In this document: positions 54,739 to 60,101 of the stretch, one piece after another
How the letters are laid out: each line of letters starts with the position of its first letter
Numbering within the stretch: the stretch's first letter is position 1
NCBI GenBank assembly: GCA_913055685.1
Contig: CAJXKC010000002.1
Span: 248,001-312,000 of the forward strand
Source of the DNA: an uncultured Flavobacteriales bacterium
GTDB lineage: Bacteria > Bacteroidota > Bacteroidia > Flavobacteriales > Schleiferiaceae
Direction of reading: 5' to 3'
Length of the DNA: 64,000 nt
Translations under genes and position numbers: made by a program
The notes under the pieces: model-generated
What the model saw: only the letters and a program-made list of their open reading frames with translations
Told to the model about the DNA's origin: nothing
Database searches by the model: none

Positions 54739-55275
54739 TTAGGCCTGTACCTTTAAATCAGCTACACTGTCATAGCTTAATTTTTTTCGGATAAACTCCT
54801 GCTTTTCCTCATCAAAGATTCTGCAAGAATCAATTGGATCCATATAAAGATGTAGCGTCATGGCGCGCTCTCCCTGCATATTCTCCAACAAGTGAAAGCC
54901 CATATTATCATTCATATAGGAAATTCCACCATCTTGAAGGATTTCGTTGCTGGTTGCAACTAATTCACCGGAGTCCGGGCTTTTTTCTTCGAAACGTATT
55001 TCCTTAAGTTCTCCCTTAAGGTTTAAGACCCAACACTCCTCGCCATTATGGCAATGTATCGGCGTTTTTTGATGTCCTTCCCAGCAGAGAAGAATTAGTT
55101 CATAGTGATCGTCTTTGCTAATGCAATTTCGGGTGTAGTGTTGCTCTGACCAAGTTGCAAAGCCTTCAAAATCAGAAGCTTTTAAATTTAACCTTTCACT
55201 AATTCCTACAAATTCGTGTGCTTGGCTACGGGCTAAAACCGTGACCAGTTCTTCCACACTATCGATGGACTCCAT
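54739..55275 (-). CDS. Cysteine dioxygenase
   Basis: 178 residues, cupin fold. The iron ligands are TPIHCHNGEECW (H74, H76) and FHLLEN (H128), with LHLYMDPIDSCRIFD at the C-terminus matching the family end; Y144 is the position of the active-site tyrosine. The cysteine at position 81 precedes the tryptophan of the cupin. It oxidises cysteine to cysteine sulfinate, the first step towards (hypo)taurine. It is divergent from a cysteine-sulfinate-decarboxylase-type gene, with a 158-nt AT-rich gap. Confidence 0.86.
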   Translation of the reverse strand: MESIDSVEELVTVLARSQAHEFVGISERLNLKASDFEGFATWSEQHYTRNCISKDDHYELILLCWEGHQKTPIHCHNGEECWVLNLKGELKEIRFEEKSPDSGELVATSNEILQDGGISYMNDNMGFHLLENMQGERAMTLHLYMDPIDSCRIFDEEKQEFIRKKLSYDSVADLKVQA

Positions 55276-55302
55276 TTGAATTTAGATTTATATAAAAATG
55301 CC

Positions 55303-55375
55303 ACGATTTTGAATGAAAATCGACGATTTTTAATTGATTTTGATACAAAATAAGTCAATTTTATTTCAAAAATTG
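55303..55375. promoter_or_regulatory. Three inverted repeats and a 20-nt direct repeat in the CDO/decarboxylase gap
   Basis: IR1 CGATTTT/AAAATCG at 55304-55322; IR2 ATTTTG/CAAAAT at 55337-55351; IR3 CAATTTT/AAAATTG at 55356-55375. The repeat ACGATTTTkAAT occurs at 55303 and 55323, 20 nt apart. A likely operator region for a local regulator; AT-richness makes chance repeats possible. Confidence 0.4.
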
Positions 55376-55401
55376 GTGATTTCTATAAAAAATGAAAAAG
55401 T

Positions 55402-55409
55402 TAACTTTG
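55402..55409 (+). promoter_or_regulatory. -7 promoter element for the decarboxylase-symporter operon
   Basis: TAACTTTG, exact TAnnTTTG, 24 nt before the decarboxylase ATG and just after the inverted-repeat cluster. Confidence 0.5.
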
Positions 55410-55433
55410 CCTGCTTTAGCCTAAAAAAGCACT

Positions 55434-56789
55434 ATGAAAAATGATCTCGATCTGTTTAGATCGATTGCCGACAGCCTCTTCCAAGCCGAAGAAAAAGAAC
55501 CAGTTTTAAAACCAATTGATCCCAAAAAACTCTTTTCGGAATTAGACTTAAGCCTTTCCGAATCAGGTTCAAATGAGGAGGATTTTGAAAAGGCTTTAAG
55601 CGAATTAGTACTCAATACCCCAAGGACCGCGAGCCGGAAGTTTTTTAATCAATTGTTTGGAGGTAGGAACTCCAAAGCCACTTTGGGTGAATTACTTGCC
55701 GTGCTGCTCAATAACAGTATGTATACCTATAAGGTAGCAGGTCCTATGGTCGGGGTAGAGAAGGAAATTCTCCATCGTTCAGCCGAATTATTAGGTTATC
55801 CCGCACAGGCCGATGGAACTTTTGCGCCTGGCGGATCCATGACCAATTTCATGGCTATGTTAATGGCTCGAGATAAAGCACAGGAAAAGGCCCGTACGGA
55901 GGGTCTTAGCGGTAAGTTGTGCATGTACACATCTAAAGAATCGCATTATTCCATTCCCAAGAATGCCGCATTTATGGGTATTGGTCGTAACCAAGTGCGT
56001 TACGTTGCCAGCGATGAAAAAGGAGCCATGGATGTAAACGCTTTAACGGAAACAATTAAGGAAGATAAAGCTGCTGGTCATCATCCTTTTATGGTAATCG
56101 GTACAGCTGGTACTACGGTAATGGGGGCATTCGACCCCATGGGTGAAATAGCAGCCATCGCAGAAGAAAACGATTTATGGTTCCATGTAGATGGTGCTTA
56201 TTGTGGGAGCGTAATTTTTAGTGAAAAGTATAAGCACCTCATAGCAGGAGCGGAGCTAGCAGATAGCTTTAGCTATAATGCCCACAAAATGCTCGGGACA
56301 CCACTATCTTGCTCGCTTATCTTAGTGCGTGAGAAGAAATACTTATACGATAGTTTCGCCAATGATGCGGATTACCTCTACCAAACCGATGGTGATGATT
56401 ATAATTTAGGGAAAACTTCATTGCAATGTGGCCGCCGTAACGATGCCTTAAAGTTTTGGACTTTATGGAAATCGGTTGGCAGCAAGGGTCTGGGCGAAAT
56501 GGTAGACCGACAGTTTGAATTAGCTCAGTACGCCCTTGATTATGTCGAGAAGCACCCTGATTATACCGTTTATTCCTATCCTAATTCATTGGGTATATGC
56601 TTTAATTACAAGGACATAGCAGCTGATGCCCTTTGCAATAGTCTATACGACCAAGGTGAGTTAATGATTGGCTTTGGTAAATTTAATGACGATGAATTTG
56701 TTCGACTCGTAACTGTAAACGCCGGTAATACGGAGGAAGACATAGATGCCTTTTTCTCCGTCCTCGAAAACTTTGCCGCAAAAATGTAG
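55434..56789 (+). CDS. PLP-dependent decarboxylase, cysteine sulfinate/glutamate decarboxylase type
   Basis: 451-residue group II decarboxylase. FFNQLFGGRNS near 70, YTYKVAGPMVGVEKE, FAPGGSMTNFMAM, SHYSIPKNAAF, GTAGTTVMGAFDP and the PLP lysine in SYNAHKMLG (K285, with D253 in HVDGAY) are all present. The pattern matches CSAD/GAD-like enzymes of the eukaryotic type. The adjacent cysteine dioxygenase gene makes cysteine sulfinate to hypotaurine the most likely reaction; aspartate or glutamate decarboxylation cannot be excluded. The next gene follows 3 nt later. Confidence 0.87.
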   Translation: MKNDLDLFRSIADSLFQAEEKEPVLKPIDPKKLFSELDLSLSESGSNEEDFEKALSELVLNTPRTASRKFFNQLFGGRNSKATLGELLAVLLNNSMYTYKVAGPMVGVEKEILHRSAELLGYPAQADGTFAPGGSMTNFMAMLMARDKAQEKARTEGLSGKLCMYTSKESHYSIPKNAAFMGIGRNQVRYVASDEKGAMDVNALTETIKEDKAAGHHPFMVIGTAGTTVMGAFDPMGEIAAIAEENDLWFHVDGAYCGSVIFSEKYKHLIAGAELADSFSYNAHKMLGTPLSCSLILVREKKYLYDSFANDADYLYQTDGDDYNLGKTSLQCGRRNDALKFWTLWKSVGSKGLGEMVDRQFELAQYALDYVEKHPDYTVYSYPNSLGICFNYKDIAADALCNSLYDQGELMIGFGKFNDDEFVRLVTVNAGNTEEDIDAFFSVLENFAAKM

Positions 56790-56792
56790 CCT

Positions 56793-58292
56793 ATGACTCT
56801 CAATTTAGTTGTACTTGGATTTTACTTTTTAATTCTCTTTGGAATCGGAATAGTCGCTTCCCGAAGGATTAAGACCATGGACGACTATTATGTGGGAGGG
56901 AAAACTTTAGGGTATTGGTTGGTCGCATTTTCAGCTCGAGCTACCGGGGAATCGGGTTGGCTTTTACTCGGACTCACGGCAATGGGTGCCATGGCCGGAG
57001 TATCTGCTTATTGGGTAGTGATAGGCGAAGTATTGGGAGTGGCTATATCTTGGTTTTGGATGGCCAAACGCTTTAAAATACTTAGCGATAAGTACCAGTC
57101 TATTACTATTCCCGATTTTTTAGAAAGTCATTTTAAGGCTAAGGGTCATACCCTAAGAAGCATTGCGGCTTTCTGTCTTTCCGCCTTCGTTATCATCTAT
57201 GTTTCGGCGCAGATCGACATTACCGGTAAAGCCTTTGAGACTTTTTTAGGGGTTAATTATTTCACTGGAGCCATTGCGGGATTTCTAATTGTGGTGGCCT
57301 ACATCTTCACCGGTGGATTTTTAGCGGTGGTTTGGAGTGATTTCTTTCAAGGTGCCCTTATGTTTTTGGGACTGGTTTTACTGCCAGTAGTCGCCTATTA
57401 TAGTATTGAACATCAAGGTCCGATTTTAGAAAGCCTCGAGCAGATTGACCCTAAGCTCACTAATATTTGGGGCGGTTTCGATGATCCCTGGATGCAACTC
57501 GCCACAATGGGAGGTTTTGCCTTTATAGGTCTAGGGTTTTTGGGTTCGCCTCAGGTTTATGTGCGATTTATTTCTGTTCGAAATACCAAGGAAATAGATA
57601 AAGGTCGTTGGGTAGCTATACTGTTTACCTTAATTAGCGATGCTGCAGCGGTAAGCATTGGTTTATTGGCGCGTTACTTTTTCACTGAAATCGGTCAGGA
57701 TCCCGAGTCGGTGCTTGGTTTGGCAGGAGAGGATAGTCTTATGGTGCTACTCAAAGCGACCTTCCCGGCAGTAATCATAGCCATCTATATTGCTATTATA
57801 CTGAGCGCAATAATGTCTACTATCGACTCACTATTGGTGGTAGCCTCTAGTGCCATTACTAGAGATTTTTATCAGAAGATTTTAAATCCGAAAATTAGTA
57901 ACGATAAATTAGGCCGACTATCCTCAGTGGTAACCTTAGTAATGGCCTTATTTGCCTTATTGGTGGCAATGATTGTGGCCTTAACCGTTCCTGGTAGAAC
58001 AGTATTCTGGTTTACCATTTTTGGTTGGTCGGGTATTGCAGCAACTTTTTGCCCCATGATAATCCTTTCCTTATTCTGGAAGGGTTTCAAACAAAAAGGT
58101 GCAATTGCGGCAATGTTAGTAGGCTTTTTAGGGGTGCCCTTCTTTAAGTTCTTCGTGCAAAACATAGAGGTGATTGGGCCTTATTTCGAAAAACTAGATG
58201 TAATGGGACCAGCTTTTGCCTTGTCCTTTATCGCAGGTATTCTAGTAAGTAAGTGGAGTAAAGAGAAAAGTCTTGGCGAACTGCACGCTTAG
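56793..58292 (+). CDS. Sodium:solute symporter (SLC5/PutP family)
   Basis: 499 residues with about 13 membrane helices. The N-terminus FGIGIVASRRIKTMDDYYVGG, then ARATGESGWLLLGL and SAIMSTIDSLLVVASSAITRDF match the SSS family, close to PutP-type sodium/proline symporters. The substrate is not readable; beside the dioxygenase and decarboxylase genes a link to taurine, hypotaurine or another osmolyte is plausible. It is 3 nt from the decarboxylase gene and its stop is interlocked with the next minus-strand gene (TTAG). Confidence 0.86.
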   Translation: MTLNLVVLGFYFLILFGIGIVASRRIKTMDDYYVGGKTLGYWLVAFSARATGESGWLLLGLTAMGAMAGVSAYWVVIGEVLGVAISWFWMAKRFKILSDKYQSITIPDFLESHFKAKGHTLRSIAAFCLSAFVIIYVSAQIDITGKAFETFLGVNYFTGAIAGFLIVVAYIFTGGFLAVVWSDFFQGALMFLGLVLLPVVAYYSIEHQGPILESLEQIDPKLTNIWGGFDDPWMQLATMGGFAFIGLGFLGSPQVYVRFISVRNTKEIDKGRWVAILFTLISDAAAVSIGLLARYFFTEIGQDPESVLGLAGEDSLMVLLKATFPAVIIAIYIAIILSAIMSTIDSLLVVASSAITRDFYQKILNPKISNDKLGRLSSVVTLVMALFALLVAMIVALTVPGRTVFWFTIFGWSGIAATFCPMIILSLFWKGFKQKGAIAAMLVGFLGVPFFKFFVQNIEVIGPYFEKLDVMGPAFALSFIAGILVSKWSKEKSLGELHA

Positions 58293-59119
58293 TGGCCAAT
58301 TTCTGGGAAGTGCTGGCTTAACAAGCGCGAGCACAGACCGGTATTGTAATCAAAATTACCTTGATCCATATCCGGTAAAAATTCCTTTGCAAAATCCATC
58401 ACCCGATCTTCCAGTTCGGTCATGTAGTCTTCGTTAGGCTGACCGTTTACGGTACAAGCTACTGAGATACGTTTAAAAGTAATTAAGTAGATTTTATAAC
58501 CATTAAAGTCTACCCAATCGAGGGCCTGAGTCTTGTTACGAACTACCGCGTCTTCTACCATTCGTCGAACCGTGTCTAGCATAAGTGAAGTAACTTCTTG
58601 ATTACTATCACCGCTAAACTTACTGCGCATACCCAAAAGGTTACGCGCCGTGTTTTCCAAGACAAATAAATCACTTAAAGAAACTTTACCTTTAGGAGCC
58701 TTGGCTTTTCCTTCTTCAGGTAAATCAACTTTCTCGCGATATAGGGTAGTGGGGTCTTTTAATTTATTGATGCGACCAAAACCTAGATTATCCCAAAAGC
58801 CCTTGCGCTTGTCACCTGTGTATTGTTCAAACATTTGAACGAATAGGGGATACAGGGCATTCTGAATGCGTTCGGGGTTTTCGTTAATCTCTTTCTCTAA
58901 TGTTTGGTAAAAAAGATGACCGAATTCTTTCGGGAATTCCCTCCGGAAGCGCATAAACCAGTCGGCAAGAATGGGCTCAATATTTTGCTCCATCTTCTCG
59001 CGGACCTTAATCTCATCCTCCAGACGATTAACATCTTTCTCCGTATCTGCCTGTTTCGCTCTTTCTTCACGAAACAAGAGATCCTTCAGAATTTCCAAAC
59101 TATTAGGATTATTACTCAT
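58289..59119 (-). CDS. Coiled-coil protein with a roadblock/longin-like C-terminal domain (uncharacterised)
   Basis: 276 soluble residues. N-terminal helices (ILKDLLFREERAKQ, then VNRLEDEIKVREKMEQNIEP) resemble the LLxxE-type segment seen in certain bacterial OmpA-linked envelope proteins, followed by FGHLFYQTLEKEINENPERI and a conserved ALYPLF. A linker with KAKAPKGK leads to a C-terminal domain (about 150-250; LSDLFVLENTARNLLGM, LDTVRRMVEDAVV, YKIYLITFKRISVACTV) with the strand-helix order of roadblock/longin-like domains. Not assigned to a described family; function unknown. Overlaps the upstream coiled-coil gene by 8 nt. Confidence 0.65.
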   Translation of the reverse strand: MSNNPNSLEILKDLLFREERAKQADTEKDVNRLEDEIKVREKMEQNIEPILADWFMRFRREFPKEFGHLFYQTLEKEINENPERIQNALYPLFVQMFEQYTGDKRKGFWDNLGFGRINKLKDPTTLYREKVDLPEEGKAKAPKGKVSLSDLFVLENTARNLLGMRSKFSGDSNQEVTSLMLDTVRRMVEDAVVRNKTQALDWVDFNGYKIYLITFKRISVACTVNGQPNEDYMTELEDRVMDFAKEFLPDMDQGNFDYNTGLCSRLLSQHFPEIGH

Positions 59120-60101
59120 CGAGTAAGTCGCTTAGTTTTTTAAGGGTATCACGTAAGGCTTTCTTTTTAGGGTCCTCGTAGGAACGTCCCATTTGACGTT
59201 GACTAAGATCCATAAAAGCCTCCATTTTAGCTTCCATACGAATTTGCTGTTCACGAACACTGCGTTCTAAATCAGCTTTCACGCGTTCGATATTGTAACC
59301 TTGAATGCTACCTCCACCTCTTTTGAGGAGTCCGAGAATATCATTTTCTAGAATATCTTGAATAGCGCTCACGCGGTGCTCAAGAGCTTCTCTTTCATTT
59401 TGTGCAAACTCAAAACGTTCATTTACACGGCCAGCTAAGCGCTCCAGTAAATCCTGGGTTTCGTTTTCAAAACGATCTTGGCGATTGCTAAGGCGGTTTT
59501 CCACCTCATCAAGAGCCTGGGGGCTAAGGCGATTAATCTTGGCCTCAAGCTGGGCTAAACGATCTTCCAACAAACTTTTATTATTATCCTGGTGTGCACT
59601 GCTACTAAGTTTTTCACTAAAGTCATTTAGACTGTAGCGCTCACTTATTTCAGGCTGCTGTTTTTCGCTTTCGCGGAAATTACTTTCCATTTTATTGATT
59701 GGTTCCAAGCTTTTTTCTAGTTCAGTTTTACCTTCGAAAGAAGCTAATTTACTTTCTTTCTTGGCTCCAGACAATTTTTGTAGGGCCTTTTCAAGATTGC
59801 TTAAGTTGCTATCTTCAGTAAGCTCGGTAGTCGACGGTGTCTTCTTTTGAGGACTTGCCGTTGCTTTAATGTTTAATTCCGAACGCAAATAGTTTAACTG
59901 TTCTTTCATCTCATTCATGGACTCCAGCATAGTTTCATTACTTTGGTCCACTTTCGTGCTCAAACCTTCAAATCTGCTTTCCAAACGCTCGATTTGATTG
60001 CCAACCAAGATCTTCTTGATCGCCTTCAAACGCTGCTCCTCTTGGAGCTCCTCGCTATTGGGAATGTAATTTGGTTCTAGTCTAATTTGTCGCGCTTCCA
60101 T
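59112..60101 (-). CDS. Coiled-coil protein, uncharacterised, partner of the roadblock-like protein
   Basis: 329 residues, no signal peptide. N-terminal segment EEQRLKAIKKILVGNQIERLE resembles that of the downstream protein. Coiled-coil stretches occur at about 20-75 and 170-275; between them is a low-complexity linker (about 78-165, rich in K, S, E). The end (DPKKKALRDTLKKLSDLLDE) is helical. I do not recognise it. The two genes overlap by 8 nt and clearly act together; a cytoskeletal, scaffolding or GTPase-regulatory role is only a guess. First gene of its run; no clear TAnnTTTG is visible upstream. Confidence 0.6.
   Translation of the reverse strand: MEARQIRLEPNYIPNSEELQEEQRLKAIKKILVGNQIERLESRFEGLSTKVDQSNETMLESMNEMKEQLNYLRSELNIKATASPQKKTPSTTELTEDSNLSNLEKALQKLSGAKKESKLASFEGKTELEKSLEPINKMESNFRESEKQQPEISERYSLNDFSEKLSSSAHQDNNKSLLEDRLAQLEAKINRLSPQALDEVENRLSNRQDRFENETQDLLERLAGRVNERFEFAQNEREALEHRVSAIQDILENDILGLLKRGGGSIQGYNIERVKADLERSVREQQIRMEAKMEAFMDLSQRQMGRSYEDPKKKALRDTLKKLSDLLDE

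Follow-up and report, generated by a model that had tools for sequence, protein, structure and literature searches.

The 64,000-nucleotide window analysed here (contig CAJXKC010000002.1, positions 248,001 to 312,000) belongs to an uncultured bacterium of the Flavobacteriales, family Schleiferiaceae, whose genome is represented by eight contigs with a total of 2.96 Mb. Within positions 54,739 to 58,292 of the window, three genes were studied: a putative cysteine dioxygenase (CDO) gene on the minus strand (54739..55275; 178 aa), a gene for a group II pyridoxal phosphate (PLP) decarboxylase on the plus strand (55434..56789; 451 aa), and a gene for a Na+/solute symporter of the SSF family, likewise on the plus strand (56793..58292; 499 aa). 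The first two are divergent and have one control region of 158 nt in common (55276..55433). The ATG of the symporter gene lies 3 nt past the decarboxylase stop codon; given this short gap, decarboxylase and symporter are probably co-transcribed. The gene positions given in the initial annotation agree with the open reading frame (ORF) coordinates. We interpret the three genes as a predicted cysteine-to-hypotaurine module with an associated Na+ symporter and assign a probability of roughly 0.77 to this reading.

The CDO assignment rests on the ORF and its match to Pfam CDO_I (88.8 bits, cut-off 23). The histidines H74, H76 and H128, to which the initial annotation had drawn attention, are present and fall on the positions that bind iron in the solved mammalian CDO. 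This 3-His iron site is kept in 59, 59 and 58 of 59 relatives linked to the decarboxylase. R49, which makes the protein Arg-type, aligns with the carboxylate-binding Arg60 of mammals and is kept in all 59; Arg60 is described as contacting the substrate in mammalian CDO (PMC8050391). From the Ser-His-Tyr network, H142 and Y144 occur in 59 of 59 linked relatives, and the place of the serine is taken by Thr140 in the window. Judged by its family, iron ligands and carboxylate-binding arginine, the enzyme would oxidise cysteine to cysteine sulfinate.

Cys81 and Tyr144 correspond in position to Cys93 and Tyr157, which are cross-linked in eukaryotic CDO, and they too are found in all 59 linked relatives. 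The cysteine of this pair has been called prototypical for eukaryotic CDOs, many bacterial CDOs being without it (PMC4019311), and bacterial CDOs are described as using an unmodified tyrosine (PMC8050391). Since both places are kept, the linked bacterial CDO resembles the eukaryotic type and may be cross-link-capable. As the statement concerns many bacterial CDOs and not all of them, earlier work may already have noted some with this cysteine. The same genome encodes a second, divergent CDO-family protein outside the window (L002:1426-1953; G000:C1). It has Gly at the Cys93 place, as does its best PDB match, the CDO entry 4ubg, and its second iron-ligand histidine is out of register. Its gene adjoins genes which, by eye, were named Crp/FNR-like regulator and rhodanese-like.

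The decarboxylase matches Pfam Pyridoxal_deC with 260 bits (cut-off 27), and none of the 76 aligned decarboxylases deviates at K285 or D253, which bears out its earlier placement in group II. Its best solved relatives are cysteine sulfinate decarboxylase (CSAD; 6zek with 8.5e-82 and 2jis with 2.5e-80) and GADL1, ahead of glutamate decarboxylase (GAD). Three positions are stated to decide GAD/CSAD selectivity in a paper that also reports expression of the CSAD of Synechococcus PCC 7335 (PMC8153620). In one alignment these positions read F75/S95/Y97 in the window (F75-x19-S95-x-Y97), F/S/Y in human CSAD (2jis), Y/S/Y in GADL1 and S/N/F in both human GADs. Two candidate identities were rejected: GAD65/67, whose motif S/N/F the enzyme does not carry, and the PanP aspartate decarboxylase (TIGR03799; 153.1 bits, cut-off 606.1). 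The score for L-2,4-diaminobutyrate decarboxylase (NF052646; 209.7 bits, cut-off 900) is likewise too low. A tree computed without the motif columns, by a quick method that gave long-branch warnings, places animal CSAD, GADL1 and GAD together as the sister group of the entire clade, within the set of sequences included.

A sample of 296 genomes from the window's order, not chosen by motif, contains the decarboxylase clade (at least 45% identity) in 58 genomes. For 55 of these carriers, CDO, PanD and PanC were also searched by family; G084, G184 and G239, which have partial genes, are outside these counts and the tree. The motif F/S/Y occurs in 16 of the 55 tested carriers. CDO was found in 14 of these 16, where a copy always directly adjoins the decarboxylase gene, and in none of the 39 carriers with other motifs. 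The linked CDO subfamily (at least 40% identity) adjoins the decarboxylase in all 14 order-sample genomes having it. PanD is present in 15 of the 16 F/S/Y genomes (the remaining one is 67% complete) and in G095, which shows Y/S/Y; in the window's lineage it adjoins PanC. With PanD present, beta-alanine supply is therefore not what the decarboxylase is needed for. Motif, CDO adjacency and the occurrence of PanD elsewhere in the genome support a predicted CSAD type, which would convert cysteine sulfinate to hypotaurine and CO2. They likewise support the earlier proposal that CDO and decarboxylase together form a cysteine-sulfinate/hypotaurine module.

A different pattern is revealed by family f11 (loci L019, L021-L032, L048, L050-L066 and L201-L216), represented by 38 tested genomes of 0.8-2 Mb and 55-99% completeness. 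The family search detected no CDO in any of the 38 and no PanD in any of them, 16 being at least 90% complete; PanC is present in 34. At the third motif place Ala or Ser replaces Tyr in 37 of 38, and in the tree without motif columns f11 is nested within the F/S/Y clade with a support of 93. On the simplest reading, the f11 enzyme would have taken over aspartate decarboxylation for pantothenate, as a PanD replacement, and the enzyme of the window's lineage would serve cysteine sulfinate. These f11 variants, which look like aspartate decarboxylases, together with the name of the close solved relative GADL1, acidic amino acid decarboxylase, lend some substance to the idea that the window's enzyme too makes beta-alanine, as an ADC/PanP-like aspartate 1-decarboxylase, with a cysteine-disposing CDO adjacent by accident. 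We regard this as improbable, in view of PanD beside PanC in the genome, the CSAD motif, a PanP equivalog score far below its cut-off and a CDO linkage that is kept despite different flanking genes.

This linkage was followed by a scan of contigs from named genomes, in which 488 relatives were confirmed (tblastn, E 1e-3 or better) and the best 80 inspected; part of these 80 loci stem from the same genomes as the order sample. Because the peptides scanned with, FFNQLFGG and NNSMYTYK, include motif residues, the share of F/S/Y, 78 of 80 loci (window row excluded), is biased. CDO adjoins the decarboxylase in 50 of the 80 loci and the symporter adjoins it in 33, 30 of which also have CDO. A divergent CDO with the symporter downstream is seen in 24 loci, and CDO and decarboxylase in tandem with a divergent symporter in 6; a further 20 have CDO only, 27 have neither neighbour, and 3 have the symporter only (L086, L134, L143), the contig ending on the CDO side. 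CDO and decarboxylase are thus neighbours in many genomes although the genes around them differ, and this is more than chance. That the symporter has a place in the module is supported by the two gene orders in which it repeatedly accompanies them.

The order sample extends this picture, with the symporter adjoining the CDO-decarboxylase pair in 11 of 14 module genomes. A symporter relative of at least 59% identity occurs in 18 of the 296 genomes; eight more, with 32-34% identity, are left out of this figure. The decarboxylase clade is present in 17 of the 18, which comprise 13 CDO genomes out of 14 (the symporter lying beside the pair in 11 and elsewhere in 2), G178 without CDO, and three f11 genomes. 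G039 is the CDO genome without symporter, and G100, the eighteenth carrier, is 59% complete. Flanking genes were compared over 110 loci, after four duplicates (L033, L034, L035, L037) had been dropped; near-identical pairs such as L036/L089 remain. Other recurrent flank clusters, by eye NQR subunits, ApaG-like, PurF-like and aldehyde dehydrogenase genes, were rejected as parts of the module because they are seemingly lineage-bound and housekeeping-like.

Among the inspected loci, 20, mostly titled Flavobacteriaceae, reveal one common island that keeps the F/S/Y decarboxylase and contains no CDO (L092-L096, L098, L100-L103, L109-L112, L133, L136, L145, L151, L153, L157; a view of the loci only, the genomes not having been searched for CDO). 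Seven loci with the same upstream neighbour retain CDO, which must hence have been lost or acquired at this very site. In two loci of Saprospiraceae (L114, L138) the motif is F/A/H and no CDO lies beside the decarboxylase. In L120, from a metagenome-assembled genome (MAG) titled Verrucomicrobia, CDO (41%), decarboxylase (60%) and symporter (69%) are all present, which would reflect either transfer or mis-binning. At the level of the phylum, a general sample of 395 genomes contains the decarboxylase (threshold E 1e-90) in 8, each belonging to the same order as the window. Many lineages have the module, yet it is sparse. Bacterial examples are not so few as the initial annotation states, since in the named-genome collection the pair occupies 50 of the 80 loci inspected; phylum-wide, however, the decarboxylase is confined to the 8 genomes just mentioned.

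Several observations weigh against a cysteine-to-hypotaurine module. In 28 of the 78 F/S/Y loci no CDO gene lies beside the decarboxylase, a few of these being contig ends, and 2 of the 16 F/S/Y genomes of the order sample (G178, G163) are without CDO. The motif change and the absence of CDO represent essentially one evolutionary event, and independent pairs therefore give no statistical power. The symporter occurs in 12 of the 395 phylum-sample genomes, 7 of which are without the decarboxylase at the threshold used. A search with PF00743, the FMO-like family to which the animal hypotaurine oxidase belongs, drew no match from the genome of the window and five others of its genus (0/6). Finally, a more distant CDO (22-36% identity) was seen in ten more order-sample genomes that have no member of the decarboxylase clade; it is thus the linked subfamily, and not CDO in general, that goes with the decarboxylase. 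These distant CDOs indicate that CDO has other uses, and the second CDO-family gene beside Crp/FNR-like and rhodanese-like genes points the same way. Both would suit a role in cysteine catabolism or detoxification, in which CDO and decarboxylase drain cysteine to an exported or inert product of no osmolyte value. A separate CDO linked to the decarboxylase and a symporter of importer type would speak for making or holding the product instead, and we consider a purely detoxifying role rather unlikely.

The distribution of PF00743 bears on the end product of the predicted module. Of 27 genomes searched, 8 gave a match, which exceeded the cut-off in 6; among the 14 module genomes, G206, G236 and G039 are over the cut-off and G082 is weak, the matches being mostly partial and the proteins 353-503 aa in length. 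As no FMO-type hypotaurine oxidase was found in the six genus genomes, hypotaurine, and not taurine, is the gene-supported product. The taurine synthesis originally proposed is thus supported by genes as far as hypotaurine and not for taurine as end product. Conversion of hypotaurine to taurine might be non-enzymatic or proceed by a further enzyme. In a saline habitat the product would probably be of use as a compatible solute, an antioxidant or both, and the route would also dispose of excess cysteine. Taurine dissimilation of the Xsc type is unsupported: 15 of 17 genomes show some match to Xsc, none of the 17 over the cut-off (best 308 bits against 676).

The symporter forms a clade of its own with the TM1 signature ATGESGW. 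It matches SSF PF00474 with 228.4 bits (cut-off 22.8) and TIGR00813 with 208.3 (cut-off 184), and its best NCBIfam match, the proline symporter PutP (TIGR02121), reaches 326.6 bits against a cut-off of 515.5. D55, M56, W244 and Y248 of PutP are Gly, Glu, Ile and Phe in all 50 clade members, the window included. All 50 retain W59 and S340/T341, the latter presumably the Na2-site residues, and 47 of them Y140. D55 and Y248 are described as crucial in PutP, and the Na2 site as having two hydroxyl residues (PMC7918813). The designation "PutP-family" is valid at the superfamily level (SSF); identity with PutP was rejected on account of the missed cut-off and the replaced D55, W244 and Y248.

The substrate of the symporter might still be proline, or cysteine/cystine as the precursor of the pathway. 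PutP as the best NCBIfam match and the kept W59, S340/T341 and Y140 are in line with this view, and the score under the PutP cut-off and the four replaced residues argue against it, as does the genomic context of a relative without decarboxylase. Surroundings were examined in six of the seven decarboxylase-free carriers. In one of these six, G605 (L190:6334-14798), a 57% relative lies upstream of genes for an amidase, an NCS1 permease, an aminotransferase, a dihydropyrimidinase and a methylmalonate-semialdehyde-type dehydrogenase, likely a reductive pyrimidine-to-beta-alanine degradation set. The scanned neighbours in the other carriers (MFS, PH-domain, sulfatase, threonylcarbamoyl-AMP synthase, desaturase) show no beta-alanine link. 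We find import of proline or the precursor doubtful. Beta-alanine and taurine are close analogues, and therefore a beta-amino substrate would unite the module and the G605 context, a single case. The compound that the symporter imports may thus be small and of the beta-amino type, with hypotaurine/taurine or beta-alanine as the most probable candidates; as a salvage or re-uptake arm the symporter would serve the same pool as the two enzymes, a step we infer less firmly than the enzymatic ones. An unlinked symporter copy in a module-bearing genome (L192:5904-9023) is divergent from a gene of the beta-Ala-His dipeptidase family.

In the control region, TAnnTTTG, a candidate Bacteroidetes-type -7 element, begins about 32 nt before the decarboxylase ATG, in an AT-rich stretch where its presence is to be read with caution. 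It is found at -32 to -38 in the window, L036 and L087-L090 (members of the genus; L036 and L089 are nearly identical) and in L038; L099 has it only at -155, and L091 has none. On the CDO side of the window's control region no TAnnTTTG was found. Between 55314 and 55410, upstream of the decarboxylase, runs such as TCAATTTT and CAAAA recur in aligned relatives; they are of low complexity and represent a possible regulator site. An inverted repeat noticed by eye was dropped, as it is absent from eight relatives. The stop of the CDO gene lies 1 nt beyond the end of an upstream 882-aa ORF, LptD-like by eye, and at 58289-60101 two adjoining ORFs (276 and 329 aa) are without Pfam match at E 0.001. 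Among the best 80 of the 488 relatives, the closest named ones are Flavobacteriales/Bacteroidetes MAGs and Salibacter halophilus; judged by these names, the host is probably marine. Salibacter halophilus (L091), a cultured bacterium, has CDO, decarboxylase and symporter alike.

Marine taurine is mostly credited to animals and zooplankton release (PMC5724677), and taurine synthesis by bacteria and microalgae has been called sporadic (PMC10356861). A module recurring across many mostly marine-named Bacteroidota lineages would add a bacterial taurine source, and the paired symporter would offer a handle on bacterial Na+-coupled (hypo)taurine uptake. The decarboxylase clade also lends itself to testing cleanly how small a number of exchanged residues may turn an enzyme from one substrate to the other, cysteine sulfinate or aspartate. 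Taken as a whole, the elements could amount to a self-contained (hypo)taurine synthesis-salvage module of mostly marine Bacteroidota, with eukaryote-type CDO, CSAD and a new Na+ symporter for solutes like (hypo)taurine or beta-alanine, the same decarboxylase having been retuned in the PanD-less family of the order by Tyr-to-Ala/Ser exchange to turn aspartate into beta-alanine; this comprehensive account is speculative, and we hold it to be less probable than not. A CDO-CSAD-symporter cluster in Bacteroidota was found in none of the open-access titles and abstract starts listed, which is weak evidence of absence, as subscription journals were mostly uncovered.

The module and its components can be set beside the closest known systems. 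The symporter has the SSF family and the Na2-site Ser/Thr in common with E. coli PutP, to which it is 31.5% identical, and differs in D55, M56, W244 and Y248. Mammalian CDO type 1 (6bgf, 2ic1) is like the window CDO in the 3-His site, Arg60 and the Cys93/Tyr157 places and is the closer PDB match (2.7e-23, versus 2.7e-7 for the putative CDO 3eqe); the window CDO, however, is bacterial, has Thr140 where mammals have the network serine, and is a candidate for the cross-link. Animal CSAD (2jis, 6zek) has the motif F/S/Y and the PLP Lys and Asp in common with the window enzyme, which falls outside the animal CSAD/GADL1/GAD group. The nearest system as a whole is known from the cyanobacterium Synechococcus sp. 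PCC 7335, whose taurine pathway was reportedly described by Agnello and colleagues in 2013 and likewise consists of CDO-type and CSAD-type enzymes, with the CSAD selectivity motif as matched to solved chains. The pathway type is hence already known in bacteria. What is added here is its breadth, the recurring symporter, which appears to be a new part of a cysteine-to-hypotaurine gene set, the eukaryote-type CDO and the contrast with the PanD-less family. Compared with Synechococcus sp. PCC 7335, the present module belongs to Bacteroidota, includes a Na+ symporter in the cluster and has its CDO and decarboxylase genes in divergent orientation.

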